DNA of 36,423 nucleotides, from positions 1 through 36,423 of the forward strand of contig JAQGPJ010000070.1 of assembly GCA_028293125.1 (NCBI GenBank), written 5' to 3'. This DNA comes from Verrucomicrobiales bacterium. Its GTDB lineage: Bacteria; Verrucomicrobiota; Verrucomicrobiia; Verrucomicrobiales; V1-33. Shown piece by piece: positions 3,301 to 24,475 of the stretch (positions within the stretch are counted from its first letter, which is position 1; each line of letters opens with the position of its first letter). The notes under the pieces were generated by a model. That model was not told the DNA's origin and made no database searches. It saw nothing but the letters and a program-made list of their open reading frames with translations. The translations under genes were made by a program, and so were the position numbers.

Positions 3301-3672
3301 TTCCTGGGCGTCTTCGGTGAGCACGAGGACTCTCTGCTGCGGGCGGAGATGGAGGCCGCCTGCCGCACCACCTTGGCTGCCGGGCTTTCCGGGGTGGATC
3401 ATCTGTGCTGCGGCACCATGGGACGCGTGGAGATTCTCCATGTCACCGCGGACGCCATGCCGGGGAGCTCCAATCTTTCCCTGGCCAGACTGGGGGCCAC
3501 TCTGACTGTGCGGCGCGCCCAGCAGAGAAAAGCCTTTACGCTCCAGACCGATCCGGTGCGCAATGCGGTGTTCCAGCCCGGCTTTTTCCGGGGCTCCAGC
3601 GGTATTGGCCACACCCTGCTCCGGCTGGCCCGGCCGGACCTGGTGCCGTCGGTGCTCAACTGGGACATCTGA
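310..3672 (+). CDS. lanM: Class II lanthipeptide synthetase LanM (CCG-type, ProcM-like)
   Basis: This bifunctional enzyme (1120 aa, a usual LanM length) phosphorylates and dehydrates Ser/Thr of the precursor and then adds Cys thiols to form lanthionine rings in the cytoplasm. The N-terminal half is the kinase-like dehydratase (DUF4135). It contains K318 (context LVYKRRP) and the motif D393-x-H395-xx-N398 followed by D410-x-E412, matching the LanM active-site pattern. From about residue 740 the protein is a LanC-type cyclase with GYSHG, then C985 in WCHG, then C1033-C1034 in CCG. Three Cys ligands instead of Cys-Cys-His is the feature of the ProcM clade, known for relaxed substrate choice. The ATG at 310 has no clear Shine-Dalgarno. 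The probable precursor ends 183 bases upstream and a GNAT gene follows 67 bases downstream. Confidence 0.95.
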   Translation: MSDPSASSLSATLFFPEEIDVLGRRAPGLAGRFSTISYPLETADGQAEKKGESKLEDPASPSLQARMEMWMAESADSRADLFSKRLEWDGIRQDAAALLKDEWPLPAGERPKWLSFLEHLSPGRQDSPWAALATEVAASSPAPFASACRPFLIAALDIFQLEGPASLDSGVDESIIRAAVRGLLQELSSFTAPVLARRFKDYLSQRQALPDASSSRNYHAFSDDLGLGRGWAPVLLEYAGLARLMAVVCLGWARETQEFITRFQTDRGELEQVFQLSGPENCTGLKLKAVQVGISDRHGGAGTVKVLEFSDGRKLVYKRRPLDLEADFHQLLRALREQGLDCAPPALAVLPKAGYGWVEHASAGPVDTAGELEMWFKKAGSLLCLMHLLGGNDGHMENVIATTDGPVLIDLETLLQPTFASRDNSAGRNGSSPAPSPGTFTEAARRVQDSVLQTGLLPLWQRGRQGALYDIGGLTGEGGYESPAPRLVWENTSTDGICPAWRRGIALGLKNLPVFEGARHSAVRNLPALCAGFSTTWRALQSHAGAVHAALDRWSEAPIRVLLRPTTHYASLLERSLAAGSLKHGIDRSLIFEALRRQFVRAHPSRPLLWAAVEHETQALENGDIPVFYVRAGGHHLEDAHGECLIENAFSRSPLEASMAKLGALTEAGLQRQLEMIATAFIRPDDRAAPEAPQAESSDTVDYAALLKTVPLISDDGLIRAATMLGGQIINAAIRGKDGFVTWLAPAFLHPDKKEQRGVSYYLYDGAAGMSLFLAALARVTGLDAAKRTALAALEPVRAILDSPHAGAMVSREGIGGCSGLASLVYALTGVSRLLDAPELLERAARISLLIDDARIARDQSLDIVSGSAGAILSLLALHRATGDSEVLARAVACGEHLLAQAERVGDDALAWNSWPDRVLLAGYSHGTAGGAAALLALFKATGTQAYADAARAALRHERGLYDPKAENWPLLLPGGGSRFVSTWCHGAPGILLSRMGFLGVFGEHEDSLLRAEMEAACRTTLAAGLSGVDHLCCGTMGRVEILHVTADAMPGSSNLSLARLGATLTVRRAQQRKAFTLQTDPVRNAVFQPGFFRGSSGIGHTLLRLARPDLVPSVLNWDI

Positions 3673-3739: not shown

Positions 3740-4660
3740 ATGATCGCAACCCAAGTGCCCACCACCGCCGCGGAGGCCGCGGATTTCACAGGGATGACCT
3801 TTCCCCACTACAAGCACCTGACGGCGGTCCCCAGCCATCTGGACATCACTCCCCTGCTGGTGACCGCCACGGTGGACGATGTGCCGGCGGGGCTGGCGCT
3901 CGGCGCCATTCCCAAACCCGGCTACCAGGCGCCCCCCACCCTTTTCTCCCTCTATACGGCCCCGGCTTTCCGGCATCAGGGTGTGGGCACGCGGCTGATG
4001 GAGGTGTTCCATCATGAGGTGGCGGCCCGGGGAGGAGAGCTTATCCGCACCATTTACATGACGGGAAAGGATGTCAGCGCGCACTTCGAGCGCATCCTGG
4101 AGAAAACCGGCTGGGAAAAACCCCAGCCCCGCATGGCCGCCATCAAAGCCGATCTCCGTCAGATCCGCGCCATGAACCCTCCCTGGCTTCAGGAGCGCCG
4201 CTTTGACGCCAGCCGCTTCAGTATCGTGCCATGGCGGGAAATAACCGATGCCCAGAAAGACGCCCTGCGCCGCTCGCATGAGGCGGATCGCTGGATCGCG
4301 GAGGACCTGGCGCCATGGAAACATGAGGCCAATTACGATCCGGTCACCTCCTGCGCCGTGCTGCGGGACGGTGCCCTGGTCAGCTGGGTGATCAATCACC
4401 GTCTGGCGGACGGCACCACCCGCTTCACCTGCTCCTTCGCCCATCCCCGCCTGCAGCGCTACGGAGTGGTGATGTGGCTTTACAAAGAGGCCGTCGATCA
4501 GATGGAGAAGCACAACCGCCGGTTCGGCATGTGGACCGTGCCGCTGCATCATCCGGCCATGCATGCTTTCGCCACCCGCTGGATGAAGCCCTGCGCGGTT
4601 TATTTCCGGGAAACCATGGGATGCGAAAAAATCCTCACGTCCGACCGGATTCCCGTTTAA
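3740..4660 (+). CDS. GNAT-family acyltransferase, probably tandem GNAT
   Basis: This 306-aa protein has a GNAT fold in its N-terminal half. The acyl-CoA-binding signature FRHQGVGTRLM lies at about residues 77-87, after the strand LFSLYTAPA. The C-terminal half (from about 165) repeats the pattern loosely, with strands around VSWVINHRL and a C-terminal region like the end of a GNAT domain, so a tandem-GNAT protein is likely. GNATs transfer acetyl or longer acyl groups from CoA or a carrier to an amine. Its place directly behind lanM suggests that it acylates the lanthipeptide N-terminus or a side chain, or protects the host, but the substrate is unknown. The ATG at 3740 is preferred because the upstream in-frame codons lie inside lanM in another frame. 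Confidence 0.78.
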   Translation: MIATQVPTTAAEAADFTGMTFPHYKHLTAVPSHLDITPLLVTATVDDVPAGLALGAIPKPGYQAPPTLFSLYTAPAFRHQGVGTRLMEVFHHEVAARGGELIRTIYMTGKDVSAHFERILEKTGWEKPQPRMAAIKADLRQIRAMNPPWLQERRFDASRFSIVPWREITDAQKDALRRSHEADRWIAEDLAPWKHEANYDPVTSCAVLRDGALVSWVINHRLADGTTRFTCSFAHPRLQRYGVVMWLYKEAVDQMEKHNRRFGMWTVPLHHPAMHAFATRWMKPCAVYFRETMGCEKILTSDRIPV

Positions 4661-5612: not shown

Positions 5613-5834
5613 TTAATGGAGAGGGAGTTCATCGAAAGCAACGGGCGGGATAACCATGGTGATATCGGTTTCCGTATCCTCCACGATGTTGATGCGGACA
5701 TTGCCGAGGCTGGTGCCGATGATGCTCTCCACCATAGCCTTGGGGTTGATAAGAAGCTGCCGGCGGAACACCGGATCGCGGTAGGCTTTGAGGGCGATGA
5801 TTTCGCGGAGTTGGCCTTCGGTGACGTGTGACAT
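5613..5834 (-). CDS. NHLP-type (nitrile hydratase leader-like) RiPP precursor or leader peptide
   Basis: This 73-aa product has the recognisable layout of the nitrile-hydratase-alpha-like leader family: an N-terminal helix (GQLREIIALKAYRDPVFRR), then LLINPKAMVESIIG, then VRINIVEDTETDITMVIPP. In the family this corresponds to a D-P-x-FR helix, a L-x-x-D/N-P motif and a strand ending in V-x-P-P. Typical NHLP precursors continue into a core after the leader. Here only about nine residues follow and there is no Cys, so no lanthionine can form. It may be a leader-only decoy, a precursor for another modification, or a remnant. It lies opposite to the lanM transcript, within 150 bases of its end. 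No Shine-Dalgarno is visible before the ATG. Confidence 0.75.
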   Translation of the reverse strand: MSHVTEGQLREIIALKAYRDPVFRRQLLINPKAMVESIIGTSLGNVRINIVEDTETDITMVIPPVAFDELPLH

Positions 5835-6272: not shown

Positions 6273-7250
6273 ATGAGCACGCCCCCGCCTGTCCCCCCGC
6301 CATCCGGTCCACGAAAGCCATCCGCCATGGCCAGCTGCATTCTGGTAGGAATCCTGCTGGTCTTTCTCGGGGCTCTGGGCGGCGGGGGATTCTGGGCCTA
6401 TAAAAAGTATGGTGCCCCGTATTTCGCCAAGTCCGGCACTCCTGAAGTCGCGGACAACAGCACCGGACAGAAAGTCACCAAGGAGGGGCAACCGGAAACC
6501 CCGCCCGTCACAAAGCCGGCCCCCACTCCTCCGCCCGGCAAGGACACACCGGTGAAGGATGATCTCCTGACCGCCACGCCCAGGCAGGAAAAGCCTGTCA
6601 CGGAGCCAGAGCCTCACGTGAAGCCGGAAGTGGCGGACAACACTCCCAAGGATCCTCCGCCGGCGCCAACTCCGGAGCCGGAGCCTCCCGTTCAACCGGA
6701 TCCAACACCGGCTCCTGAGCCTGCGCCCTCCATTCCTGACAATCCCGATCCGGTGGTGCCCGCCGAGCCTGTGAAGACTTTTGCAGCGAACGCCCCGGAG
6801 GTGATGACCCTCAAGGCCGACGCCGACCAGCGCATTGATGAGGCCCCGGCGGACATTTACTCCGACGACGACAAGGAAAAGGTGCGGGAAGCCATCCGCC
6901 AGGCCAAGCGGCTCACCCGGGTGGCGACCCTTCAGTTCGGCAAAGGGGCGGCGGCTCTGGGAGGCAACGAGCGCAAACGTCTGAAAACCGCCCTGCTGAC
7001 GCCCGAGGCCGAAGCTCTCCTGTCCGACCCGCAGGCGGTCTTTTTCCTGATTGGATTTGCGGATTCGTCCGGGGCCTCGCAGGCCAACCGCTCCCTGTCC
7101 CAGAAGCGGGCGGCGGGCGTGGGCTCGGTGCTGAGGAGCTTCCGTGTGTCCAACCGCGCGTATGCCGTGGGCCTTGGCTCCAGCAAGCTGGTGGGCGGAG
7201 CCCAGGAGGACAAAAACCGCGCGGTGGAGGTGTGGATCGTTCTCCCCTGA
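6273..7250 (+). CDS. Membrane-anchored OmpA-family (peptidoglycan-binding-like) protein
   Basis: This 325-aa protein has a proline-rich N-terminus and one membrane helix at about residues 20-40 (within SCILVGILLVFLGALGGG). A long PE/PK/PT-rich linker like those spanning the periplasm covers about residues 50-170, and an OmpA-like domain occupies about residues 205-325. Recognisable parts of that domain are the strand FFLIGFADSSG, then NRSLSQKRAAGV, and a last strand AVEVWIVLP, with NRAVE matching the family's N-R-x-V-x-I pattern. Such domains usually bind peptidoglycan, so the protein could tie the cell wall to an inner-membrane complex. It is the first gene of a co-directional cluster with the FHA-ABC transporter. 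The ATG at 6273 was chosen over an upstream start because the extension lacks any sensible sequence. Confidence 0.85.
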   Translation: MSTPPPVPPPSGPRKPSAMASCILVGILLVFLGALGGGGFWAYKKYGAPYFAKSGTPEVADNSTGQKVTKEGQPETPPVTKPAPTPPPGKDTPVKDDLLTATPRQEKPVTEPEPHVKPEVADNTPKDPPPAPTPEPEPPVQPDPTPAPEPAPSIPDNPDPVVPAEPVKTFAANAPEVMTLKADADQRIDEAPADIYSDDDKEKVREAIRQAKRLTRVATLQFGKGAAALGGNERKRLKTALLTPEAEALLSDPQAVFFLIGFADSSGASQANRSLSQKRAAGVGSVLRSFRVSNRAYAVGLGSSKLVGGAQEDKNRAVEVWIVLP

Positions 7251-7405
7251 CGGCCTCCCATGGCTGGTTCCACACGCGGCTCCTGTCAGGATTTCCGGAA
7301 TGCCGGGAAAGGAGCGGCCTGCGTCCCTTCTCTCCGTGCCCAGTGCCGGCCTAATCCTAGGCGGTGGTTCTGAGAATCGTCCCCATCCCTTCCAACGCCC
7401 GCAGC

Positions 7406-10009
7406 ATGACAGGCATGACCCCGCAAACCGCCGCTCCTGTTCCCCACATCACTCTGAGCGGAGGCACCCGGCTGAGCCGTGCCCTGGCCCCCGGCGTGCC
7501 GTTGACCATCGGCCACGCCAAAACCGCGGCGCTGCGCATTCCGCACCCGGCTGTCTTTCCCGTCCACTGCACGGTCACGTGGGAGGAGGGATTTGTCAGG
7601 CTGAGCGACGGCGGCAGTCCGCTGGGCACGAAGGTCAACGGACATCCGGTGACGGAAGACGTGGCGCTGTCGGATGGGGATGTGATCATGGTGGGCCTGT
7701 TTCAGTTCCACTTCACCTGGGAGGTGCCCGGTGCTGTCAAAGCTGCCCCGGCCCCGGCTGCGGATCCGCAGGAGGGCGTCACGGCACCACCACCTCCGCG
7801 CCCGGCCCCCCGCGTTCCCGACCCTCTGCCGCCTCCCGCGCCGGGAGCACCCTCGGCGGTGTTCCGTGGGGAGCAGGTCAGTGAGATTCCGGTCGCCGGC
7901 GGCCTTGCCTTCGGCACCGGCCGGGATGTGGATATCCAGCTGGCCGATTCCTCGCTTTCACCTGTGCAGGCGCGGATCGAGGCTGTGGCCTCCGGTTTTG
8001 ACGTGGTGGACATGGGCCGCACCGGATCGCAGGTGAACGGAAAATATTTCGAACGCCATCCGCTGGTCATCGGGGACCTGCTGCAGTTCGGCGAGGCGGA
8101 CTTTTTTGTCTTCGACGGTTTCGCGCTGCGTCCGGTGCGTGACGGTCTGGGCTGCGGGCTCCAGGCGCACGGTATTGATGTCTCCGGAGGCCGGGCCCGC
8201 GGGCTGATCCTGCAAAGCGCCAGCTTTGACGCCCGGCCCGGCCAGTTTGTGGGCATTATCGGCCCCTCCGGCGCTGGGAAAACCACTCTGCTCCGGTCAT
8301 TGCTGGGATTGCAGGCGATCTCCGCCGGCACTATTCTGCTGGATGGCCAGGATCTGCGGAACATTGAGTCGCCCTCCAGCTATTTCGGCTATGTGCCGCA
8401 GCAGGAGATCGTGCATCTGGAACTCACCGCGCGCCAGGCTCTGCACTACAGCGCCCTGCTGCGCCTGCCGCGGCGCACCCCCCGGCGGGAACTGGAGAAG
8501 CTGATCACCGCCCTGACCAGCCGCCTGGGGCTTCAGCAGCATCTCGACACCCGCGCCGGGCGGCTGTCGGGCGGGCAGCTGAAGCGGCTCAGTGTCTGTG
8601 TGGAGCTGCTGAGCCGTCCTCCCCTGCTTTTCCTGGACGAGCCGACATCGGGTTTGGATCCGGAATCCGAAACAGAACTGATGCAGCAGCTGCAGGAGCT
8701 CAGCTACACCGGCTGCACCGTGGTCTGCACCACCCACCTGATGGAGAACGTTTACCTCACCTCCTCGCTGGAGGTGGTCATGGCCGGCCGCGACTCCCAG
8801 GGACGGCCAACTCCGGGCCGCACGGTTTTCCGTGGCAAGCCCCGGCTGGCGCGGGAGCTTTTCAATGTCCGCACGCTCTCCAAGCTCTATCACCAGCTCA
8901 AGGAGGCCACACCGGAGCACTGGCAGCGGCTTTACCAGGAAAAGACAGGCCAGTCCCTGACTGATCCACCGCCGCCGCCTCCCGGACCACCGCGGAGCAC
9001 CGCGCCGCCGCGGCGGGCCAGACGCCGCTTTCCCGTGCCCATCCTGCTGGCCAGGCAGTGGCGCATCCTGCGCTCGGACTGGAAGAATCTGTTTCTTCTG
9101 ATAGGGCAGCCTGTGCTGATCGCGGGCCTCATCGCCATGGCGGCCACGGGTGAGCACGCCAGCGACAAAAAGCTCTTTCTCGCAGCCATCGCCGTGCTGT
9201 GGCTGGGCTGCGGCAACGCCGCGCCGGAGCTGGTCAGGGAGCGCTCCATCTTCCGCCGCGAGCAGTTTGTGGGACTGGGCGCCCTTCCGTATCTGCTGAG
9301 CAAATTCCTTGGAATGGGCTGTGTGACCGGCCTGCAGGCGCTGCTGCTGTTTCTCATTCTGAAATTTGCGGGTGACGGTCTGGACGGTGCGGCTTTCTGG
9401 CAGTTCGCGGGGCTGGCCGCCAGCGCCGCCGCCGCCACCGGACTGGGGCTGGCGGTCTCCGCCTGGGCCCGGAACACCCTGCAGGCCGTGCTGCTGGTCC
9501 CGGTGATCATCATTCCACAGATTCTGTTCGCAGGGTTTGTCTTCCCGGTCCGGGACTGGGATGAGCACCCCGTTCCCCGCATTGCCAGCCGCCTGTTTCC
9601 CTCCTTTTCCGCCCAGCGCGTGATGGATGTCTCGCTGGTCTGGGGGAAAAGCGTGGGGGATGCCGGCGACTATTCCACCGCTCTCAACAATCTCTACACC
9701 TTCCTGCGCCCGGTCTCGGTGCTGCTGAATCCCAACCAGTCCCTCGTCATTCCTGTGGATGAATCCATCATCTACGACCCGCCGGGGGAGGGCATGGATC
9801 CATTCGGGGTGGAGAATTTCGAGTGGGACCCCTCCAAAAAGGGCGTCCGCACTCCGCGTTATGTGACGGACACCCTCCGGGATGAGCGGCCCCGCGTGCT
9901 GAGGCACGCCCGTCCCGCCCTGGCGGGACTGGCGGCACTGGGCCTGTGGACGCTGGTGAGCTGCGGCTTCGCCCTGCTGATGCTGCGCCGGAAAGACGCC
10001 GGGCAATGA
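7406..10009 (+). CDS. ABC transporter with two N-terminal FHA domains fused to an ATPase and ABC-2 permease
   Basis: This 867-aa protein has four parts. The first FHA-like domain (about residues 10-110) ends with GTKVNG before the last strands. The second (about 155-260) contains GTGRDVDIQLADSSLS and GSQVNG. The ATPase (about 265-500) has Walker A GPSGAGKTTLL, Q-loop YVPQQE, signature LSGGQLKRLS, Walker B LLFLDEPTSGLD and a switch His in CTTHL. The rest is an ABC-2 type permease of about six helices (about 545-865). FHA domains read phosphothreonine, so transport is probably gated by a Ser/Thr kinase. The layout is a half-transporter of the ABCG/White type, so a dimer is expected; the cargo is unknown. 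ATG 7406 is used (7415 is also possible). Its stop overlaps the next start in ATGA. Confidence 0.93.
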   Translation: MTGMTPQTAAPVPHITLSGGTRLSRALAPGVPLTIGHAKTAALRIPHPAVFPVHCTVTWEEGFVRLSDGGSPLGTKVNGHPVTEDVALSDGDVIMVGLFQFHFTWEVPGAVKAAPAPAADPQEGVTAPPPPRPAPRVPDPLPPPAPGAPSAVFRGEQVSEIPVAGGLAFGTGRDVDIQLADSSLSPVQARIEAVASGFDVVDMGRTGSQVNGKYFERHPLVIGDLLQFGEADFFVFDGFALRPVRDGLGCGLQAHGIDVSGGRARGLILQSASFDARPGQFVGIIGPSGAGKTTLLRSLLGLQAISAGTILLDGQDLRNIESPSSYFGYVPQQEIVHLELTARQALHYSALLRLPRRTPRRELEKLITALTSRLGLQQHLDTRAGRLSGGQLKRLSVCVELLSRPPLLFLDEPTSGLDPESETELMQQLQELSYTGCTVVCTTHLMENVYLTSSLEVVMAGRDSQGRPTPGRTVFRGKPRLARELFNVRTLSKLYHQLKEATPEHWQRLYQEKTGQSLTDPPPPPPGPPRSTAPPRRARRRFPVPILLARQWRILRSDWKNLFLLIGQPVLIAGLIAMAATGEHASDKKLFLAAIAVLWLGCGNAAPELVRERSIFRREQFVGLGALPYLLSKFLGMGCVTGLQALLLFLILKFAGDGLDGAAFWQFAGLAASAAAATGLGLAVSAWARNTLQAVLLVPVIIIPQILFAGFVFPVRDWDEHPVPRIASRLFPSFSAQRVMDVSLVWGKSVGDAGDYSTALNNLYTFLRPVSVLLNPNQSLVIPVDESIIYDPPGEGMDPFGVENFEWDPSKKGVRTPRYVTDTLRDERPRVLRHARPALAGLAALGLWTLVSCGFALLMLRRKDAGQ

Positions 10010-12132
10010 CTGTTGTCTCCGCCGCCGAAGCCGGTTTCTTAGGCTCTGTGAACCCCTCCGACGAACTTTTTCTGCATGTGAACGGACAGCGCTGGCCCTG
10101 CCGGGCGGGCGATATTCTGGGCCGCCAAGGCACGGTGGCCATTGAGGTCCTGCGCCCGGTGGACGTGCTGTCGCGGCGGCATCTGAGCATTCAGTCCATT
10201 GATGGCGTGTGGTGCCTGGTGGCCCTGCCGGAATCCCGCAACGACACTTGGATAGACGGTGTGCCCATGCGCCGCGGCCAGCCCTACCCGCTCACGCCCA
10301 TGCAGCTGCTTCAGGTGGACTCATTCCAATTCCATCTGGGGGCCGGGGAATTGCCGGGGGCGGGGGCGGGGCGTCCGGCCGTTATCGGTTTCCAGCCCGG
10401 CGGCGGCACCTTGCTTTATCCATCCACCGCCTCCCTTTACCCCACCCTGACTGTCAAGGGGGATGATGACACCCGCGACGCCCTGCCGCTTGGAAATGGA
10501 CTGGACAGCCTGCCCGGGGCCGCCGTGGAGACGGATGTGCGCCTTAACATCCACGCCGCCAACCGCCAGGCGCTGGCTCTGCTGGGAAGCGATGCCGCCG
10601 GCCGCGATCTCGACGAGTGGACCCCTGAGCGCACCCGCCTGCGCAGTCATCTGCTGACACTGGACCAGGGCGTCACCTGTCAGAGCATCGACGTCCGCTT
10701 CCATGTGCCCGCCGGCAGCCGCATGATTGAAATCAGCGCCACGCGGCTGGAGGCCGGCTTCATGGTTTTTCTGCGGGATGTAAGCGCCGAGCACCAGGTG
10801 GAGGCCGGCCAGCAGTCGCTGTTCCAGCGGCTCTTCCGGCAAAGCGGGGCGCTTTCCGAACTGTCGCTGTCCCGCGCCTTCCAGGAGGGCGATGTGCCTA
10901 AAAGCCTGACCCTGCTGGCCCACCGCGCCGCGGAGGGATTGGAGTGCCGCCGTGTTTCGGCCTGGCTGAAATCCGGCAGCGGAAACAGTGTGGGGGAGAA
11001 GGTGGTCCGCCAGGTTGTCCACGACACCTCCGGCCCGGTGGCCGCCGGCACAATGACCGATCTGGCCTACTGCCCCATGTTTTTCGATAATCTGCGCGGG
11101 GATGAGCCGTGGGCGGAGGCGGTGACGGACACGCCGATGATGAGCCTCCTCCGGGAAATCGGTTTTGCGGGACCGGAAACCGGCAGCCTGCTGTGTGTGG
11201 GACTGCGGCACTCGGACGGCCTTTACGGCGTGCTCTGCTTTGAGCGCACTGGACCGGAGAGGGCGTGGTCCCGCGAGGACCGCCAGTTCGCCGTCTGCCT
11301 GGCCAGCTACGGCGTGCTGGCTCTCCAGACCAGTGAGCGGCGGGAAACCATGGCCCGGCTGGAAAGGAGCGAGCGGCGCATGACCGCGGAGCTGGAGGAG
11401 GCCAAGCACTATGTGCACCGCATTCTTCCGGATCCCGTCCATGAGGGGCCGATCACCGCCGAGTGGCACATGGTGCCCTCCGAAGCGCTCGGCGGCGACT
11501 CCTTCGGATATCACTGGGTTGGCGACCTTTTTGTGATGTACATCCTTGATGTCGTCGGCCACGGCACCGGCATGGCCCTGCTGTCCATCTCCGTGCTCAA
11601 CAGCGTCCGCTCCCGTCTTTTCCAAGGGGAGGCCGCCATGGCTGATCCGGCCAAAGTGCTGGCGGACCTCAACGCCGCCTTCCCCATGGAGGAGCAGAAC
11701 AACATGCTCTTCAGCATGTGGTATGGGGTTTACAACCGCCGCACCGGCATCCTCACTTATTCCAGCGCCGGACATCCGCCCGCCCTGCTGCTCTTTGGCG
11801 CGGTGCCGGAGGACGGTGTGGACTATGCCGCGCTGGGCACGGAGGGACCGTCCGTGGGAGCCTTGGCGGATGTGGAATTCCTCAACGGCAGCATTGTCGT
11901 GGATCCCGGCGCTAAACTCTACATCTACACAGACGGGGCTTTTGAGATCCCGGTCGGCCCTGACCGCGAATGGTCCTTTGAGGAATTCACCGCCGTGGTC
12001 CGCGGCACCCGCTACATGGCGGGCGGCGAGCCCGGCTATCTGCGCAAGCGCATCGGCGCCCTGTGCGCCCTCGAGCGTTTTCCCGATGATTTCACCATTG
12101 TCCGTCTTTCCTTTTCCGCGCCGGACGTTTAG
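10006..12132 (+). CDS. FHA / GAF-like / SpoIIE-type PP2C Ser/Thr phosphatase
   Basis: This is a 708-aa cytoplasmic regulator. Residues about 20-115 form an FHA domain with GDILGRQG, SRRHLSI and SRNDTWIDG, including the S-x-N-x-T phosphothreonine pocket. A PAS-like middle and a GAF-like region (about 285-445) lead through a helical linker to the SpoIIE-type phosphatase (about 480-708). Metal-binding aspartates are visible as D498 (GGDS), D515 (DVVGHG) and D643 (YTDGAFE). In partner-switching systems this enzyme dephosphorylates the STAS antagonist; the RsbW-like and STAS genes lie immediately downstream. Translation is probably coupled to the transporter through the 4-base overlap. An FHA domain on the phosphatase is unusual and suggests it docks on the same phosphothreonine partner as the transporter. 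Confidence 0.93.
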   Translation: MTVVSAAEAGFLGSVNPSDELFLHVNGQRWPCRAGDILGRQGTVAIEVLRPVDVLSRRHLSIQSIDGVWCLVALPESRNDTWIDGVPMRRGQPYPLTPMQLLQVDSFQFHLGAGELPGAGAGRPAVIGFQPGGGTLLYPSTASLYPTLTVKGDDDTRDALPLGNGLDSLPGAAVETDVRLNIHAANRQALALLGSDAAGRDLDEWTPERTRLRSHLLTLDQGVTCQSIDVRFHVPAGSRMIEISATRLEAGFMVFLRDVSAEHQVEAGQQSLFQRLFRQSGALSELSLSRAFQEGDVPKSLTLLAHRAAEGLECRRVSAWLKSGSGNSVGEKVVRQVVHDTSGPVAAGTMTDLAYCPMFFDNLRGDEPWAEAVTDTPMMSLLREIGFAGPETGSLLCVGLRHSDGLYGVLCFERTGPERAWSREDRQFAVCLASYGVLALQTSERRETMARLERSERRMTAELEEAKHYVHRILPDPVHEGPITAEWHMVPSEALGGDSFGYHWVGDLFVMYILDVVGHGTGMALLSISVLNSVRSRLFQGEAAMADPAKVLADLNAAFPMEEQNNMLFSMWYGVYNRRTGILTYSSAGHPPALLLFGAVPEDGVDYAALGTEGPSVGALADVEFLNGSIVVDPGAKLYIYTDGAFEIPVGPDREWSFEEFTAVVRGTRYMAGGEPGYLRKRIGALCALERFPDDFTIVRLSFSAPDV

Positions 12133-12177
12133 GTTCCGCAGCCCCCTACTGATCAGCCATCCTTTGTTCTGATAAAA

Positions 12178-12621
12178 ATGAGCGAACCCTTCTCCTATCT
12201 GATCCACGGCGGTCCCGCCTCCCTTCAAAATTGTCTGCAGGCGCTCGAGGAGAGCGGAGTCTATCAGGAAATGCCGCCACCGCTCCGGTTTGTCGCCGAG
12301 CTTATCTTGGATGAGTTGGCCTCCAACACCCTGAAGTACGGCGGATGCGAGAATCCCGAGGTGTGGCTGAGCTTGGAATACACCAATGGCTCCATGCGTA
12401 TTGAGATCAGCGACAACGCGCAGCCGTTCGATCCCTGGAGCCAGTCCCCCGGGGTGGACGACAGCCAAGTGGAGGATATTGAGGAGTTGGAAATCGGCGG
12501 ACGCGGCATCCACATGTTGAAGCAGGCCACTGACACCCGTCATTACCAGCGCCGTGATGGACGGAATATCAATATTCTCACGCGAAGCCTTCACCGGCCG
12601 CTCTGGAGTGCCGCCGCCTAA
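12178..12621 (+). CDS. RsbW-like anti-sigma regulatory factor / Ser kinase (HATPase_c_2)
   Basis: This 147-aa protein has a GHKL ATP-binding fold. The N-box is LILDELASNTLKYGG with E46 and N50, the G1 box is ISDNAQPFDP with D79, and the G2 box is GGRGIHML around residues 107-114. This is the full set for the RsbW/SpoIIAB-like family. Family members bind a sigma factor or other target, and phosphorylate a STAS-domain antagonist on Ser to release themselves. The STAS gene follows 107 bases downstream and the phosphatase precedes it, giving a complete partner switch. No sigma factor is encoded in this cluster, so the target may be the transporter or a sigma factor elsewhere, such as the one at 20026-20721. 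Confidence 0.9.
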   Translation: MSEPFSYLIHGGPASLQNCLQALEESGVYQEMPPPLRFVAELILDELASNTLKYGGCENPEVWLSLEYTNGSMRIEISDNAQPFDPWSQSPGVDDSQVEDIEELEIGGRGIHMLKQATDTRHYQRRDGRNINILTRSLHRPLWSAAA

Positions 12622-12728
12622 CTCGCCGGAGTCCGGCAAAAAGACAGCCTTGGCAGCCTGAACAGAATCAGAGCCAGGCCTGCCTCCTCCTCCTCTCCGC
12701 AGCCTGACAGAACCCCAAACCCCGTTTC

Positions 12729-13760
12729 ATGGAAATCGTCAAATCAGACCAAGACGGAATCAACGTCATCACCATAACCGGCAAGCTCGACTCCGGCACC
12801 GCCGCCGAATTCGATGCCAAATTACGGGAGCTCGTGGATGAGGATACAGGCCGTGCCGTGGTGCTGGAATTCTCCGGCGTGCAGACCCTGACCAGCGCGC
12901 CGCTGCGGGCCATCCTGTCCCTGGCCAAGCGCATGCAGCGCCACGGGGCCGCGCTCATCCTCGCCGCGCCCAGTGAAAACGCTTTGGAATCCCTGCGCAT
13001 CAGCGGATTTTTGAAGCTGAAGCTCTTTGAGCTGACTGACTCCCTGGCCGCCGGAATTCATCAGGCGCGCCAGGCGGTTCCCGGAGCCGCCCGCCCCGCA
13101 GCTCCGGCCACTCCAGCCCGGCCCAGTTCCTCACTGCTCCCGCCCCCTCTCTCCTCACTGCCCTCCATTGCTCCGCCGCCGGTTGCCGCTCCACCACCGG
13201 TTGCCGCTCCACCGCCAATTGCGACCCCGCCACCGGTTGCCACCCCACCGCCAATTGCCGCTCCACCGCCAATTGCCGCTCCACCGCCGGTTGCCACCCC
13301 ACCGCCGGTTGCCACCCCGCCGCCGGTTGCCACCCTGCCGCCAATTGCCGCTCCACCACCGGTTGCCACTCCACCACCGGTTGCCACCCCGCTGCCGGTT
13401 GCCACCCCGCCGCCGGTTGCCACCCCGCCGCCAATTGCGACCCCGCCACCGGTTGCCGCCCCGCCGCCAATTGCGACCCCACCGCCGCTTGCCAAAGCAC
13501 CTCCGGTGCTTCCTTCCGCTCTTCCTCTTCCCAAGACAGCTCCCGTGGCTGGACCACCGCCACTGGCACCCAAGGCCGCAGCTCCGGCACCTAAATCCTC
13601 TCCTCCACCCGTCACGCCACAGCCGCCACCCTCCCTGCCTCCAGCCGCCATCCAGCCCCCATCAGCTGCTCCCCAGGCAAAAGTGGGCTGGTTCACTTAC
13701 TGGGCCGGTGAAATTCAGAACGCGCTCGACTACTGGACCGGCATTTTCCGCCGAAAGTAA
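12729..13760 (+). CDS. STAS-domain anti-sigma factor antagonist with long proline-hexapeptide tail
   Basis: This protein is 343 aa. Residues 1-112 are a STAS domain of the RsbV/SpoIIAA type, with the segment VLEFSGVQTLTSAPLRAIL. S56, or the adjacent T55, sits at the usual phosphorylation position. Eighteen consecutive hexapeptides of the form PPPVAT/PPPIAA span 13173-13496, followed by more Pro/Ala-rich sequence. A short aromatic C-terminus (GWFTYWAGEIQNALDYWTG) looks like an amphipathic or membrane-touching helix. Usual antagonists have only about 110 residues, so the tail is an added feature. It may act as a stiff spacer placing the STAS domain at a distance from an envelope anchor. It is the last gene before a strong terminator. 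Confidence 0.9.
   Translation: MEIVKSDQDGINVITITGKLDSGTAAEFDAKLRELVDEDTGRAVVLEFSGVQTLTSAPLRAILSLAKRMQRHGAALILAAPSENALESLRISGFLKLKLFELTDSLAAGIHQARQAVPGAARPAAPATPARPSSSLLPPPLSSLPSIAPPPVAAPPPVAAPPPIATPPPVATPPPIAAPPPIAAPPPVATPPPVATPPPVATLPPIAAPPPVATPPPVATPLPVATPPPVATPPPIATPPPVAAPPPIATPPPLAKAPPVLPSALPLPKTAPVAGPPPLAPKAAAPAPKSSPPPVTPQPPPSLPPAAIQPPSAAPQAKVGWFTYWAGEIQNALDYWTGIFRRK
13173..13496 (+). repeat. Eighteen in-frame 18-bp tandem repeats (PPPxAx)
   Basis: The stretch is exactly 18 units of 18 bases, each coding PPP[VI]A[AT] with two substituted units (LPPIAA and PLPVAT) and a last unit PPPLAK. Unit DNA differs mainly at third positions (CCG/CCA/CCC) and between GTT and ATT. Unit number can change in frame by slippage or recombination, so tail length may vary between strains. 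Confidence 0.95.
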
Positions 13761-14651: not shown

Positions 14652-14753
14652 AAATTTGAGGTGAATCCGTGTCTGGGCGGTTTTGAAGTGGAGAGAGGGG
14701 GCTTTGCGCAATCACAGCTTGCCAGGCGCACCCGGTCCGTTTTTAGAAAGGGA

Positions 14754-15980
14754 ATGCCGTCTGCATGCCGGAAATTATACTGGTTCAACTGGCCGGCCCA
14801 TGTCGGCGGATCGGACACCAAGTTTGTCCACACTCTCCGCCTCCTGGCCGGAGAGTATGACATCACGGTGGTGCCGAACAACGCCGGTTACCTTCAGAAT
14901 CCGGAGTGGCTGGATTACCTGCGGGGACTCGGGGTGAAGTGGAGTCTGCCGGAGGAGATTCCCAATCGGGCGGAAGGCTGGGCCATCTCCCTGTGCAATG
15001 GCTGGTTTTTCACCGGCGGGATGCTGGGCAGCTGTGTCAGGCGCGGCCTGCGGGTCATCTGGAGCAGTGAAATGATGTGGCACTTTTACGGCGAATTGGG
15101 GGCTGTGCGCTACGGGCTGGTGGAGAAGGTGCTTTATGTCTCCCCGGTCCAGCGCCAGGCACTGGAGCCCGGCTACCGCTGGGCGGCCTCCGGCATGCCC
15201 GGCCCGCCTCCCGGCTCCTTTGCCCTTTCCTCCGACTCCCTTCTGCCGCCGGACCATGAGTGGTGGGGCACTCTGCCCGGCGGTCCCGGAGGCCGGGAAG
15301 TGCCTTGGGTCACCGCTGGAAACTACATCGATCCCGCCGCCTTTCCCTTCCGGCAGCGCGGTCTGCCAAAGGAAGGGGAGCTCCCCTTCACGGTGGGACG
15401 CGTCTCCCGGCCGGATCCCGATAAATTTCCACGGGATTTTCCACTCAGCTACGAGGGGCTGGACCTGACGGAGCCCGCCCGGTTCCGCGTGCTCGGCTGG
15501 AGTCAGCAGATGGCCGGATGCTGGCCGGACCATTCCTTCGATGCCCGCTGGGATCTGGTGCCCGCCGGCAGCGTGCCCGTGGTGCCCTTCCTGGATTCCT
15601 TGGATATCATGGTTTACGACCTTGGTCCAAAGTTCCGGGAAAGCTGGGGCCGCTCCGTGGTGGAGGGCATGCTCAGCGGCGTGGTGCCCCTTGTGCCCCG
15701 CGGCGGCGGCCATCATCTCGGTCAACTGGTGCCCCACGGCATCGGGGGGTTCCTGTGTGACGGACCGGAGGACTACCGGCGTTATGCCCGGCAGCTGCAG
15801 GATGATCCCGCACTGCTGGCCCGACTCTCGCAGGGAGCCCGGGAATGGGCTGTCAAAAACCTGTGCGGGCAAAAGGCTCATCTGGAGCGCTGGCGCCGGG
15901 TGTTCTCCGACTGGGACAGGAATCCGCGGAAAGCCGGGATTCCGGTTCTGAATCCGGAGGGAGGAGGGAAGCAGGGATGA
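14754..15980 (+). CDS. Glycosyltransferase (GT4/GT1-like, GT-B fold)
   Basis: This 408-aa protein opens with a Rossmann-like strand (KLYWFNWPAHVGGSDTKFV) containing the Gly-rich turn of GT-B enzymes. The C-terminal donor-binding part has FRESWGRSVVEGMLSG followed by VVPLVPRGGGHHLGQLV and GIGGFLCDGPEDY. This is the E-x7-E/GG pattern by which GT4 enzymes hold a nucleotide sugar. It should transfer a sugar from an NDP donor to a glycan, lipid or protein, but the acceptor is unknown. No other sugar genes are nearby. The ATG at 14754 precedes the first strand; an upstream in-frame ATG at 14661 adds 31 residues without family features. Almost the whole gene lies antisense to the extended reading frame of the kinase gene at 14775-18923. 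Confidence 0.82.
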   Translation: MPSACRKLYWFNWPAHVGGSDTKFVHTLRLLAGEYDITVVPNNAGYLQNPEWLDYLRGLGVKWSLPEEIPNRAEGWAISLCNGWFFTGGMLGSCVRRGLRVIWSSEMMWHFYGELGAVRYGLVEKVLYVSPVQRQALEPGYRWAASGMPGPPPGSFALSSDSLLPPDHEWWGTLPGGPGGREVPWVTAGNYIDPAAFPFRQRGLPKEGELPFTVGRVSRPDPDKFPRDFPLSYEGLDLTEPARFRVLGWSQQMAGCWPDHSFDARWDLVPAGSVPVVPFLDSLDIMVYDLGPKFRESWGRSVVEGMLSGVVPLVPRGGGHHLGQLVPHGIGGFLCDGPEDYRRYARQLQDDPALLARLSQGAREWAVKNLCGQKAHLERWRRVFSDWDRNPRKAGIPVLNPEGGGKQG

Positions 15981-18923
15981 TTTCGGCGGCTCCGGCGGAG
16001 CGGCGGCAGTCAGAGCCTGCAGAGCAGCCCAATTCTTTTTGGCCTCCTCCCCCAACGCTCTCCGCGGCGCTGTCACGGCACTGGTCATGGCCCGGACCGT
16101 GCTCCGCGCCAAGGAAAGACCGCGTGTTTTGAGTTCCGGCACGCCGGATTCGGTGGCTGACCGGCAGGCGCGGGAAAGCGCTTTCAGCCAGTCATCCAGC
16201 CCCCCAATCTCCTGGGAGTAATCCCGCCAGCACTGGAGCGCCTCCTCCGCGGAGTCCAAAGCCTCCTCCCAGCGTTTTTCACTGTCCAGCGCCTCGCCGA
16301 TCAGCACATAGCCATAGGGAACCTCACCGGCAATGGTCTCCAATTCCCACTTGGCCTTCAGCAGCTCCACCCGCAGACGCAGGGCCTCGCGGGTGCGGGC
16401 CAGAACGAGCTGTTTGTTACCCATGCCGCGGTGCAGTTCCGCTTCCCGCCGGAGAAAGGATGCCTGGCTCCAGCGCCACCATGGAGCACTGGCGGGATCC
16501 GCGGCGGCCTGTTTCTCCGCGAAATCAATACTGTCATCCAGCAGCTTCAGCGCCTGCTCCGGCCGGCCGGCCTTTCCCCAGGTTTCACAAAGTCCTTTCA
16601 CCACCTGCTGCCAGCCCCTCTGGTCCTTCACATCGCGCCGGCGCCGCAGGATTTCAGATTTGGCGGCCTCCGCAGCACCAAATCCCAAAGCATCCAAGCC
16701 ATCCTTTTGCTTGGATTGCTGCAATGCCTTCATTTGATCCACGGCAGCTTTGCAATAGGCCAGCCGCACCTCGCGAACCCCGGGAGCATCCTTGTAAAGA
16801 GAGGCAAGCACATCAAGACGCTTCCTGCGCTCCACTGCCGCCTGCGCGGAATCACGGATTGATTCCCGGAACACTTGCAGTGCCCAGTGGCAATCCCCCA
16901 GCCGCAGCCGCAGGCGGGCGTTGGTCGGATTGGCGGCCAGCATTTCATCCACAGCCTTCAATTCCCCCGTCAGTCCCAGTTCCGCCTCCTGCCGTTTGTC
17001 AGGCCCCATTCTGGAGGCTGCCTGCCCGGCCCAGCCGATGAGGTCGGCATACAGTTCCCGCCAGCGGGAGGGAGGGTTGAGCCCGGCGCAAAGCGACTCC
17101 GCGGCATCCCGTGCCTGGATAAAAAGAGGCCGCGCCTCCGCAAAGCTCTCCAAATAATAACGGGCCCGGCCTTCGGCGCGCAGGCATTGAATTTCCGTAA
17201 ACACCGCCTCCGGGTTGTCCGGATCCGCTGTGCGCCATTCCCGGATTTTGGCCAGTGCCCTGCGGGCGTGCTCCAGCGCTTCAGGCACTTTGGTGTCAGG
17301 GCCAAGCTGCGAAATTCCATGATCCTGACGGAAAATCAGATTCGCCCGCGCCAGGCTGGTTTCCCCATCACTGCGGACAGCTGCTCCCGGATGGCTCCAT
17401 GGAATGACGGACCGCACTGACTCGAGGGCTTCCGCTCCCGCCTCATACTGCCCTTTGTCCGCGAGCGCCCAGGCAATCGCGGTTTTGCTCTCACGCTCCA
17501 CAGCCGGGATCTCCGCCGGAGGCAATGAGGGCAGGAATTTCAGCGTGGCCCGGGCCCGGGCCTCCGCTTCATCACATTTTCCCTGAGCCAGCAGCACCCG
17601 GCTCCAGCGCAGGAACAGCCGGGCGGACATCAGCGCGCCCTGGCTGTCCCCGGAAGCGCTGGTCACCCCCGCATTGGCATCCTCCAGGCTGGACCACGCC
17701 TGATCCAGCAGATCCACGCGCCCCAGATCCTCCAGGGAATCCGCAAAAGCACCCAGCAGAAACTGTGCGCGTTTTTCAGCAAGGGCAGTCGCGCTTCTCG
17801 TGGCGGCCAACGATTTCTGAAGGTCCTTGTTTTTAAACCAGAGCCCTGCCGTGCCTGAAACGGCGGTGATCACCAGAGCGGCACTCAGCCCGGCCAGCGC
17901 CGGTTTGCGGCGGGCCCACATCGCCAGCCGCTCACCTCCTCCGGCCCGGCGCGCCAGAATGGGCGCTCCTGTGCGCCAGCGCTTCAGATCCTCCGCGAGG
18001 GCGTCCGCGCTGGCATAACGGCGGTCGGGCTCCTTGGCCAGGCAGGTCATGCAGATCACCTCCAGATCCCGCGGCACAGCGGCCACGATGGTGGAGGGGG
18101 CATCAGGCATCTCATCGGCGATCTGCCGGAGAATGGCGGCCATGCCCTCCAGCACGAAAGGCGGCCGACCGGCCAGCAACTCATAAAAAACCGCGCCCAG
18201 ACTGTAGATATCGCTCGCCGTGGTGGCGGCTTTGGACCCGTTCCAAGTGACTTCCGGGGGCAGGTAGCACGGCGTTCCCATCACGCTGGTGGTCCGGGTC
18301 AGACCGGAATCCCCGTCCGCCAGTTTTGCCAGTCCAAAATCCCCCAGGCATGGTTGCCCGGATTCATCGAAAAGGATATTGCCCGGCTTGATATCGCGGT
18401 GCAGCACCCCGTGCTGGTGGGCATGGTGCAGAGTCTCCGCCAGGCTCTCCACCCATGAGGCCGCCGTGCGGGGCGATGGCAGACGCTCCGGGGACTTCAG
18501 AAGATCCGCCAGGGAGCCGCCCGTGGCCAGCTTCATGGTGAAGTAGGGTATGCCATCCACTTCCCCGAACTGGTGGAGCGGCAGGATGCCGGGATGCTCC
18601 AGCTGGGCCAGCGCCGCCGCCTCCACCCGGAACCGGTCCTGCAGAGCCGGTGACTGGCAATGCACCGGCAGGAGCATCTTGAGCGCCACCTGGCGCCGGG
18701 GCTGATGCTGCATGGCGCGGTAAACGACCCCCATGCCTCCGCGTGACAGCTCCGCGAGCAGATCGTGGCCCGGGATTTCCCATCCTGAGACCTCCGCCGG
18801 CAGGTCACGCGCCGGATTCCTCAGCCCGGTGGCCCACAGACAGGCCACACAGACCCCGGCCTCCCCGCCAAAAGTGGTGAGAGGCTGGCCACAGATCGGG
18901 CATTCCGCCGCCGGAGTGGACAT
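14775..18923 (-). CDS. Membrane-anchored Ser/Thr protein kinase with zinc ribbon and TPR-like region (run-on 3' end)
   Basis: Residues 1-30 form a zinc ribbon (C8, C11, C25, C28). A complete Hanks-type kinase follows: glycine loop LSRGGMGVVYRA, K82, E101, H175-R176-D177, N182 and D195-F-G. One membrane helix lies near 345-367, and an alpha-helical, TPR-like region extends to about residue 980. It should phosphorylate proteins on Ser/Thr and sense signals through its outer or TPR part. It ends an operon behind a sigma factor and a C39-like peptidase. The frame has no stop at the natural end of the domain. It continues about 400 codons antisense to the glycosyltransferase until TAA at 14775, and residues after about 981 have the composition of shadow sequence. 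The kinase call is certain; the C-terminus is not. Confidence 0.85.
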   Translation of the reverse strand: MSTPAAECPICGQPLTTFGGEAGVCVACLWATGLRNPARDLPAEVSGWEIPGHDLLAELSRGGMGVVYRAMQHQPRRQVALKMLLPVHCQSPALQDRFRVEAAALAQLEHPGILPLHQFGEVDGIPYFTMKLATGGSLADLLKSPERLPSPRTAASWVESLAETLHHAHQHGVLHRDIKPGNILFDESGQPCLGDFGLAKLADGDSGLTRTTSVMGTPCYLPPEVTWNGSKAATTASDIYSLGAVFYELLAGRPPFVLEGMAAILRQIADEMPDAPSTIVAAVPRDLEVICMTCLAKEPDRRYASADALAEDLKRWRTGAPILARRAGGGERLAMWARRKPALAGLSAALVITAVSGTAGLWFKNKDLQKSLAATRSATALAEKRAQFLLGAFADSLEDLGRVDLLDQAWSSLEDANAGVTSASGDSQGALMSARLFLRWSRVLLAQGKCDEAEARARATLKFLPSLPPAEIPAVERESKTAIAWALADKGQYEAGAEALESVRSVIPWSHPGAAVRSDGETSLARANLIFRQDHGISQLGPDTKVPEALEHARRALAKIREWRTADPDNPEAVFTEIQCLRAEGRARYYLESFAEARPLFIQARDAAESLCAGLNPPSRWRELYADLIGWAGQAASRMGPDKRQEAELGLTGELKAVDEMLAANPTNARLRLRLGDCHWALQVFRESIRDSAQAAVERRKRLDVLASLYKDAPGVREVRLAYCKAAVDQMKALQQSKQKDGLDALGFGAAEAAKSEILRRRRDVKDQRGWQQVVKGLCETWGKAGRPEQALKLLDDSIDFAEKQAAADPASAPWWRWSQASFLRREAELHRGMGNKQLVLARTREALRLRVELLKAKWELETIAGEVPYGYVLIGEALDSEKRWEEALDSAEEALQCWRDYSQEIGGLDDWLKALSRACRSATESGVPELKTRGLSLARSTVRAMTSAVTAPRRALGEEAKKNWAALQALTAAAPPEPPKSSLLPSSLRIQNRNPGFPRIPVPVGEHPAPALQMSLLPAQVFDSPFPGSLRESGQQCGIILQLPGITPVVLRSVTQEPPDAVGHQLTEMMAAAAGHKGHHAAEHALHHGAAPAFPELWTKVVNHDIQGIQEGHHGHAAGGHQIPAGIEGMVRPASGHLLTPAEHAEPGGLRQVQPLVAEWKIPWKFIGIRPGDASHREGELPFLWQTALPEGKGGGIDVVSSGDPRHFPASGTAGQSAPPLMVRRQKGVGGKGKGAGRRAGHAGGRPAVAGLQCLALDRGDIKHLLHQPVAHSPQFAVKVPHHFTAPDDPQAAPDTAAQHPAGEKPAIAQGDGPAFRPIGNLLRQTPLHPESPQVIQPLRILKVTGVVRHHRDVILSGQEAESVDKLGVRSADMGRPVEPV

Positions 18924-20721: not shown

Positions 20722-21162
20722 GGCAGGGCATCTGTTGGGATCAGTTCCGCGCCGGACGGCTGACCGCCCCCTGCGGCCCCGGGAGTTTTCCTCCCGTCGT
20801 CATGAGAAGCCAGCCAGCCTGCTGGTTTCTCTGTTTTGGCCACTGCCCTCCCGCCCACCACAGCCGGAAAACGGAGAAGGATGGAAAAACCGGACAGTTT
20901 GAGTGACGGAGAAAGGACATGGGTCCGCATAATCTGTGCATTACTGTTTTGAGAAGTGCGAATACCGCAAATTTTCCAACCGCACGGTGCCGTGGCCGGA
21001 CGATCCGCCCTATCAGGCGTGTTCCAGGAAAGAGCGGCGGGCAGATCATGGCTGACTTTCAGAGAGGCGGAGTGATGCCGGTATGCAAATATTCCGCCAA
21101 GCCTTGCCATTCACATTAAAAATCTCTTTAAATCCAGCGGTGGTTTATGGATAAAACGACAA
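20722..21162. other. Intergenic region upstream of the sigma operon
   Basis: No credible gene is seen. Short open frames on both strands have no recognisable product. The stretch must carry the promoter of the sigma-peptidase-kinase operon. No clear -35/-10 pair can be chosen by eye. An imperfect inverted repeat (GGCGGA ... TCCGCC) surrounds about 21064-21102. Confidence 0.35.
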
Positions 21163-21193
21163 CTTCCGAAGCGGAGTGAATCCGCTTCGGAAG
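21163..21193. terminator. Perfect 13-bp stem-loop, likely terminator
   Basis: CTTCCGAAGCGGA (21163-21175) and TCCGCTTCGGAAG (21181-21193) form a perfect 13-bp stem with loop GTGAA. Read on the minus strand, it is followed within several bases by a short T-rich stretch. That suits termination of the secreted-protein gene ending at 21337. Confidence 0.65.
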
Positions 21194-21336
21194 CTTCATT
21201 TGGCCTGCCTTGGCGGACGCCTGGCGGTTTTGGTTTTTAAAAGGCGCTATACCGGATTTGATTTGGTTTCCGGTCTGTTTTTGGATTTTGCACCATGGAT
21301 TCCGCACCATCGCCCGCTTTTCAACTCCGACCCGCA

Positions 21337-21813
21337 TTATGAGCGGAGACGGCGCTTCGGAGTGGCCATCGCTTTTCTATTCTTCAGCGCCATCAGGCGG
21401 CTCCGCAGGATCTCCTTGTGTTCGGACTCCGCATCGGGATGCACGCTGATCCACCACAGGGGGAGCATATCAGTGGCGGAGAGATCGTCCGGAAGCGAAT
21501 CCCGGTTGTCCGTCAGAAATTTTCCGATGCTGGCCGCGCACCAAGCCGGATCCTGGGCGCAGGGGAAAACGGTGCACAGGGAACCGCACTTGGATTCGGA
21601 CGGAGTGCTGCTGAACGCCGCGATGGCCTTAACCCCCTCCAGCCATGAGCGGATAATCAATTTGGCGGTGGTGGCGTTCTGTCCTTCGCTGCGGGTGGAA
21701 AGCGCTTGGCAGTCCTGCCCAAAAGTGGAGATCGACACGCCCCCTCCCGAGCGGGCGCTGTCAGCAATCGTGATCGCCAGCAAAAAAATGAAAAAACGCG
21801 TGATGTTTTGCAT
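21337..21813 (-). CDS. Small secreted cysteine-containing protein, unknown function
   Basis: This 158-aa protein has a signal peptide (NITRFFIFLLAITIADS, residues about 3-19). The mature part contains five Cys (QDCQ, SKCGSLC, FPCAQ and WCAAS), suggesting disulfides in the periplasm or outside the cell. A segment of the type W-x-x-G followed by Cys and a short C-terminal helix faintly recalls small Rap1a/Tai-like secreted immunity proteins, but I cannot support that assignment. It lies between the sigma operon and the replication region, with its own terminator downstream. The ATG at 21813 is preferred over the upstream in-frame start at 21861 because it starts the signal peptide properly. Confidence 0.6.
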   Translation of the reverse strand: MQNITRFFIFLLAITIADSARSGGGVSISTFGQDCQALSTRSEGQNATTAKLIIRSWLEGVKAIAAFSSTPSESKCGSLCTVFPCAQDPAWCAASIGKFLTDNRDSLPDDLSATDMLPLWWISVHPDAESEHKEILRSRLMALKNRKAMATPKRRLRS

Positions 21814-21879
21814 GACACTACTTTTTAGATCCGCCAATGTTTTACGCATTTCCGGTTCCAAGTCAGGTAAAATTCAGTA

Positions 21880-21985
21880 ATGTCTTGATTATCATGAATT
21901 TATGCAATTTTTAAATCACTTTAATAAAATATCATCAAGGCAAAAATATTGCATATGCATTGCACATACGATACGATATTGAGGA
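21880..21985. other. AT-rich tract upstream of the iterons
   Basis: This stretch is far more AT-rich than its surroundings and contains the palindrome TGCATATGCA (21950-21959). It may be the promoter region of the secreted-protein gene or a helix-destabilised part of the origin. It lies about 360 bases from the first iteron-like copy. Confidence 0.4.
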
Positions 21986-22888: not shown

Positions 22889-22939
22889 TGAGTCATAACT
22901 CGTTGATTATCAACGTTCAAATCCCGACAAAAGAGAAAT

Positions 22940-23020: not shown

Positions 23021-23023
23021 GAA

Positions 23024-23030
23024 AAGGAGG
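23024..23030 (+). promoter_or_regulatory. Strong Shine-Dalgarno for repA
   Basis: AAGGAGG sits five bases before the ATG at 23036. Most other genes here lack such a site, so repA is unusual in its translation signal. That fits a replicon from outside the host's usual gene style. Confidence 0.85.
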
Positions 23031-23035
23031 GCCGC

Positions 23036-24448: not shown

Positions 24449-24475
24449 GGGCGGAGGGAAATCCCAGTTGGGGGA

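Follow-up and report, generated by a model that had tools for sequence, protein, structure and literature searches.

A partner switch encoded beside an FHA-domain ABC transporter and an OmpA-like protein in a Verrucomicrobiota bacterium may act on the cell envelope

The textbook role of a partner switch is to control sigma factors. A cluster of five genes in a Verrucomicrobiota bacterium encodes a complete partner switch (a SpoIIE-type phosphatase, an RsbW/SpoIIAB-like kinase and a STAS protein) next to an ABC transporter with FHA domains and an OmpA-like protein, and we tentatively favour, at a little short of an even chance, the reading that this switch acts post-translationally on a peptidoglycan-anchored ABC complex rather than on a transcription factor. 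The cluster is one colinear run on the + strand, from 6273 to 13760 of the window, by which we mean the whole stretch of 36,423 nucleotides that was analysed, which is the contig C120 in its entirety, from a draft genome of 6.48 Mb and 99.1% completeness (the window genome, G000). An earlier note, made from the sequence of this DNA alone, had placed the five genes here, and indeed every expected domain of the five proteins scores above its Pfam gathering cut-off; the description of transporter, switch and wall anchor as fused does not hold, as the genes are adjacent, not fused. In order from 5' to 3', the features are as follows.

6273..7250, + strand: OmpA-like protein of 325 amino acids, with a short N-terminus, one transmembrane (TM) helix, a Pro-rich linker and a C-terminal OmpA-like domain (Pfam, hydropathy)
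7406..10009, + strand: FHA-FHA-ABC-ABC2 half transporter of ABCG-like order and Rv1747-like architecture (Pfam)
7466..7738, + strand: transporter FHA1, with a degenerate phosphothreonine pocket (residue alignment with the Rv1747 FHA domain, 6cah)
7856..8113, + strand: transporter FHA2, with Thr at the Arg site and Gln at the His site (residue alignment)
10006..12132, + strand: FHA-(PAS-like)-GAF-SpoIIE phosphatase of 708 amino acids (Pfam, alignment of four homologs)
12178..12621, + strand: RsbW/SpoIIAB-like HATPase kinase (HATPase_c_2) of 147 amino acids (Pfam, residues, predicted model)
12729..13760, + strand: STAS protein of 343 amino acids, with a STAS domain, a Pro-rich tail and a predicted C-terminal amphipathic helix (Pfam, SpoIIAA alignment)
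13170..13494, + strand: array of 18-bp tandem repeats coding for the PPP(V/I)A(T/A) tail of the STAS protein (Tandem Repeats Finder)
13683..13757, + strand: C-terminal segment GWFTYWAGEIQNALDYWTGIFRRK of the STAS protein, strongly amphipathic if helical (hydrophobic moment)

The transporter and phosphatase genes share an ATGA overlap (transporter stop TGA at 10007-10009, phosphatase ATG at 10006), and the remaining intergenic gaps are about 155, 45 and 107 bp. A promoter scan, which found no sigma-70-like site and terminator-like sites at chance level only, is uninformative on the limits of the operon.

The two parts of the cluster, OmpA with FHA-ABC and FHA-SpoIIE with HATPase and STAS, occur in the same few genomes. 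Within the order (190 genomes), only the window genome, G098 and G015, which represent three families, have orthologs of both the FHA-ABC transporter and the FHA-GAF-SpoIIE phosphatase. With a profile of the transporter these three genomes score above 1400 bits and the next one 542 bits, and a profile of the full-length phosphatase retrieves the same three. The profiles were built with sequences of these genomes included, so that the scores favour them; single-sequence searches are free of that bias. A search with the FHA region of the transporter returned G098 and G015 before a drop from 88 to 46 bits, and a search of 113 relatives with the phosphatase returned G098 and G015, followed by matches to the SpoIIE domain only. 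Given the window genome, the naive chance that the other two genomes coincide is about 6e-5, a figure that ignores phylogeny and genome size. Across the phylum, no full-length match to the phosphatase was found beyond the window genome and G015 in a draw in which G098 was not listed; in a scan of named genomes with the phosphatase alignment, most matches were again confined to the SpoIIE domain and only that of L053, a contig of a Verrucomicrobia metagenome-assembled genome, also spans the FHA part. Sets of SpoIIE, HATPase and STAS proteins as such are widespread in many phyla.

The OmpA and FHA-ABC genes of G098 stand together as a unit, and a second unit, of the FHA-SpoIIE and HATPase genes with two STAS genes, lies 12 kb away on the opposite strand of the same contig. 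The second unit is preceded by genes for a 2847-amino-acid surface protein of the Calx-beta/FG-GAP type, a beta-barrel protein and a 716-amino-acid protein, with gaps of 2, 36 and 22 bases, and L053 carries the same FHA-SpoIIE, HATPase and STAS unit. In G015, the FHA-ABC and FHA-SpoIIE genes are solitary and on separate contigs, with no OmpA, HATPase or STAS gene beside them. The earlier note had named genes lying apart in relatives, out of this order, as a refutation, and this is partly what is seen: they are unlinked in G015 and split into two divergent units in G098. If two independent modules merely lie side by side in the window, this lack of a conserved order is what one would see; however, each module was found in the same three of 190 genomes and in no others, they are linked in two of these three and joined in the window by the ATGA overlap, and STAS and OmpA are fused next to FHA-ABC elsewhere (see below). 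We consider chance neighbourhood distinctly unlikely. G098 also encodes a second FHA-SpoIIE protein (L033 9009-14319, on C334) whose N-terminus bears a zinc-ribbon-like Cys motif; the next genes encode a 272-amino-acid protein and a Ser/Thr kinase.

A second context in which the same families meet is the type VI secretion system (T6SS) loci of some relatives. In two genomes (G161 and G154), a gene directly upstream of that for a more distant FHA-ABC homolog encodes a fusion that begins with a STAS domain and continues through a Pro-rich linker and one TM helix to an OmpA-like domain at the C-terminus. In a third (G027), a T6SS operon opens with a STAS-OmpA gene, and an FHA-ABC gene lies about 20 kb away. 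The fusions in the T6SS loci of these three genomes are at the following positions.

L205 271-2238: STAS-TM-OmpA fusion
L163 7525-9204: STAS-TM-OmpA fusion
L164 6586-8610: STAS-TM-OmpA fusion

The Pfam OmpA scores of the fusions are below the cut-off (17.7 bits for L163 and 19.7 for L205, not listed for L164), and we assign their ends to OmpA because they align with the OmpA subfamily of the window. TssK is encoded in both the G161 and the G154 loci, and TssL (Pfam) also in that of G154; in G161 there is a marginal match to a T6SS_FHA_C-like gene. No STAS-OmpA gene was found at the T6SS loci of the other fetched genomes, judged by a more divergent TssK. The T6SS loci of one small-genome genus (g5; L213-L218 and L220) have a divergent TssK and no STAS-OmpA gene. 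We found no description of STAS-TM-OmpA fusions in the literature searched. STAS, OmpA and FHA-ABC thus belong together in two separate contexts, which is the best evidence that the output of the STAS protein in the window is an envelope complex. The link to export or envelope assembly that the earlier note had suggested draws its support from these fusions beside FHA-ABC and T6SS genes, from the co-occurrence of the modules, from their linkage in G098 and from the giant surface protein there.

The presence of FHA-ABC and STAS-OmpA genes beside T6SS genes in G161, G154 and G027 could also be read the other way round: the FHA-ABC/OmpA complex may be the input, reporting the state of peptidoglycan or membrane to the switch, as TagQRST acts upstream of PpkA in the T6SS, with an output elsewhere. 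However, TssK (PF05936), found in 11 of the 190 genomes, has no match in the window genome, G098 or G015, which are apparently without a T6SS, and no output of such a sensor is visible in the cluster. We regard this version as unlikely. On the missing TssK match, we reject T6SS membership for the window genome itself.

The claim that the partner-switch module is complete stands at the level of residues. The phosphatase has an FHA domain (25.5 bits), a GAF domain (31.4 bits) and a SpoIIE domain (95.4 bits) by Pfam; a PAS-like region is marginal (PAS_4, 20.1 bits, under the cut-off). The metal-site residues Asp498, 515, 643, 694 and 695 of the SpoIIE domain are invariant across four homologs, as are Arg40, Ser56 and His59 of the FHA pocket. 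In the kinase (HATPase_c_2, 51.1 bits), Glu46 and Asn50 of the N-box, Asp79 and the GGxG motif are invariant in 17 homologs. The STAS domain (55.9 bits, about 12744-13022) has Ser56 aligned with the phosphorylated Ser58 of SpoIIAA, and the Ser is also found in G098 and L053. The intact residues support a switch that is complete and would be catalytically competent.

The STAS protein may be directed to the membrane. Its tail is built from 17.7 copies of the 18-bp repeat unit, and although hydropathy reveals no TM helix in the protein, the C-terminal segment reaches a hydrophobic moment of 0.65, a value attained by none of 2000 shuffles. The STAS tails of G098 and L053 have another sequence (rich in Ala, Glu and Lys), yet they have similar, YW-containing basic ends, with weaker moments (0.32-0.46). 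Membrane association via an amphipathic end is therefore our inference for the STAS protein.

If the switch were of the classical kind, the HATPase would be an anti-sigma factor and would control transcription of the cluster or of other genes via a sigma factor encoded elsewhere. The fold of the kinase agrees with this: an AlphaFold2 model (mean pLDDT 88) is closest among PDB structures to SpoIIAB, UsfX, the RsbW domain of Rv1364c and RsbW (Z 11-13), and matches SiaB (6kko) at Z 11.4 and histidine kinases at Z 8.3 or less. Its sequence has no match among PDB sequences and scores far below the RsbW family cut-offs in NCBIfam. A Shewanella partner switch acting on sigma-S is cited in a review (PMC8256260), and the window genome does encode a group-2 sigma factor (L232; 316 amino acids, with region 1.2), one of two sigma factors with region 3, the other being in an RpoD-sized frame. 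However, this group-2 sigma factor is found in all six genomes tested, three of which lack the cluster. As the earlier note had observed, there is no sigma gene inside the cluster, and moreover no SigB/SigF-class (group-3) sigma factor was found in the genome with a region-3 model, to which extracytoplasmic function sigma factors are invisible. The classical reading also leaves the STAS-OmpA fusions and the membrane-directed STAS tail unexplained, and we judge it unlikely.

The transporter is a single chain with the domain order FHA-FHA-nucleotide-binding domain (NBD)-ABC2 transmembrane domain (TMD) by Pfam (72 bits for the two FHA stretches, 99.4 for ABC_tran and 78.1 for ABC2_membrane). Translation more likely starts at the ATG at 7406 (or 7415) than at the upstream GTG at 7364; residues are numbered from 7409. 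The orthologs in G098 and G015 are 49% identical to it, and the Walker A, signature and Walker B motifs are intact and do not vary among the three. Its best NCBIfam match is the model of an ABCG-type pigment precursor permease, below the cut-off of that model. Rv1747 of Mycobacterium tuberculosis has the same architecture, with two N-terminal FHA domains followed by NBD and TMD in one chain, and the phosphothreonine pocket of its FHA I is formed by Gly32, Arg33, Ser47, His50 and Asn69 (PMC5549992). In the window transporter, FHA1 has His at the Arg site and Phe at the Ser site, and FHA2 has Thr at the Arg site and Gln at the His site. Arg and Ser are also gone from both transporter FHA domains of G015 and are kept in both of those of G098. 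From these residues, both FHA domains of the window transporter look unable to bind phosphothreonine; this is a matter of phosphothreonine gating in the window organism, not of homology to Rv1747-type transporters.

The phosphothreonine gating of the transporter that had been proposed is accordingly not upheld for the window organism. Pfam does find three FHA domains in the cluster, as had been claimed, but because both transporter domains lack the phosphothreonine-binding Arg, the FHA domain of the phosphatase is the only credible reader among them, and phosphothreonine input would most plausibly enter via the phosphatase rather than the transporter. No Ser/Thr kinase gene lies inside the cluster; the nearest kinase open reading frame (ORF) is at 14775-18923 on the - strand, at least 1 kb downstream. 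In relatives, several Verrucomicrobiota genomes among them, such a pairing is frequent: Ser/Thr kinase genes are next to or a few kb from FHA-ABC in several of 20 sampled loci (adjacent in G137 and G121), and FHA-ABC homologs are beside such genes on plasmids of Brasilonema and Rhodococcus. The C-terminal third of the nearest kinase ORF is overlapped in antisense by a glycosyltransferase-like ORF of 439 amino acids (14661-15980).

The OmpA-like protein has one TM helix (residues 18-36, by hydropathy) and an OmpA domain (29.2 bits, about 7008-7220) with the GFAD and LSQKRA motifs, which hold the conserved Asp and Arg of peptidoglycan-binding OmpA domains; peptidoglycan binding is its putative function. 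The OmpA protein of G098 is laid out in the same way, from an N-terminal TM helix via a Pro-rich linker to the OmpA domain at the C-terminus.

In the mechanism that we propose, the first module would be an inner-membrane Rv1747-like ABC transporter, expected to be a dimer, together with the OmpA-type protein, whose TM helix would sit in the inner membrane and whose Pro-rich linker would carry the peptidoglycan-binding domain. In the second, the HATPase would phosphorylate Ser56 of the STAS protein. The FHA-GAF-SpoIIE phosphatase would remove this phosphate once both its GAF domain and its intact FHA domain have received input, that to the FHA domain probably coming from a protein phosphorylated by a cellular Ser/Thr kinase. 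The Pro-rich tail and the amphipathic C-terminal helix would place the STAS protein at the inner membrane where, in its unphosphorylated form, it would act on the ABC/OmpA complex and so permit or locally position the export or assembly of an envelope component. A more specific version, which we hold to be possible but doubtful, is that the direct output of the switch is the peptidoglycan-anchored ABC transporter, with unphosphorylated STAS docking on FHA-ABC/OmpA. The STAS-OmpA-ABC core would then amount to an envelope device under phospho-control that can be moved between contexts: some Verrucomicrobiota would have joined it, as the STAS-TM-OmpA fusion, to a T6SS subtype, and others to a phospho-switch and a giant surface protein.

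Several points weigh against action of the switch on the ABC/OmpA complex. The five-gene order was seen in the window genome only, the genes of G015 are solitary, and both transporter FHA pockets are degenerate. The STAS phosphosite is not always kept in the fusions (Pro in L163, Val in L205), and the fused STAS of the T6SS relatives may be structural only. The group-2 sigma factor is a possible target of the switch. Finally, physical contact between STAS and the ABC/OmpA complex is something that we infer, as are the sense in which the switch works, what the FHA domain binds and what is transported.

Every part of the cluster has been described in some form elsewhere: the transporter has its counterpart in Rv1747, and Btr, Syp and Sia are partner switches beyond simple sigma switching. 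The transporter shares its chain of domains with Rv1747 of the Rv1747/PknF pair; unlike in that system, Arg is missing from both FHA pockets and Ser from that of FHA1, the cluster is without a kinase gene, and the transporter is accompanied by an OmpA protein and a whole partner switch. The SiaABC switch of Pseudomonas aeruginosa, like that of the window, combines a PP2C/SpoIIE-type phosphatase, a SpoIIAB-like kinase and a STAS-like target, and has a non-sigma output, the diguanylate cyclase SiaD (PMC7647112). The Sia phosphosite is Thr and its output SiaD, whereas the window site is Ser and the candidate output the ABC/OmpA complex, and the window phosphatase bears FHA and GAF domains. BtrUVW of Bordetella has the same three-protein composition and is tied to a secretion system, acting on type III secretion (PMC8256260). 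It is this type III output that sets Btr apart. We know of no ABC transporter or OmpA protein in the BtrUVW module.

The Bacillus switches RsbU-RsbV-RsbW and SpoIIE-SpoIIAA-SpoIIAB share with the window the kinase fold and the position of the STAS phosphosite. They differ in that no sigma factor of the SigB/SigF class was found in the window genome, that the window kinase is far under the RsbW cut-offs and that the window STAS tail is long and membrane-directed. The T6SS threonine-phosphorylation pathway (PpkA, PppA, Fha and TagQRST) also combines FHA signalling and a phosphatase with an ABC transporter and envelope proteins (PMC3953482, PMC10482370), and relatives of the FHA-ABC and STAS-OmpA parts lie in or beside T6SS loci; the window genome differs from it in lacking TssK and in having a switch of the HATPase/STAS type. 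The statement that no described system has this composition thus stands in that we found no description of it, although the literature searched was open-access only and the evidence hence weak, and too broad in that every part is paralleled.

Other genes lie around the cluster. Upstream is a gene for LanM, a type 2 lanthipeptide synthetase (310-3672, + strand; TIGR03897, 685.7 bits, over the cut-off), and a 73-amino-acid ORF at 5616-5834 (- strand) resembles a leader of the NHLP type of ribosomally synthesized and post-translationally modified peptides (TIGR03793, 35.4 bits, below the cut-off), without Cys. We rejected the transporter as a lanthipeptide exporter: neither in G098 nor in L053 was a LanM gene seen next to the switch genes, and we are dealing with a transporter of the ABC-2 type, not a peptidase-containing LanT. 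A role in a defence system we set aside, as PADLOC matches the transporter at the level of the ABC ATPase and the nearby kinase at that of the kinase domain. A gene for a GNAT-type acetyltransferase, about 68% identical in three genomes (window about 3740-4660, + strand; L032 16467-17375; L053 6654-8090), is within a few kb of the switch genes in all three, with P450 and SDR-like genes next to it in G098 and L053. The GC content dips to 0.53 at 21000-27015 of the window, next to genes for a RepA-like initiator of replication and a phage-type integrase; this may be an integrated element.

What is new here is the combination of parts and its genomic associations. The documented non-sigma outputs of partner switches are few: a diguanylate cyclase, type III secretion and biofilm control. 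If the switch does act directly on the ABC/OmpA complex, a transporter joins this list, and the STAS-TM-OmpA fusions of a Verrucomicrobiota T6SS subtype offer an independent handle on the role of STAS at the cell wall.

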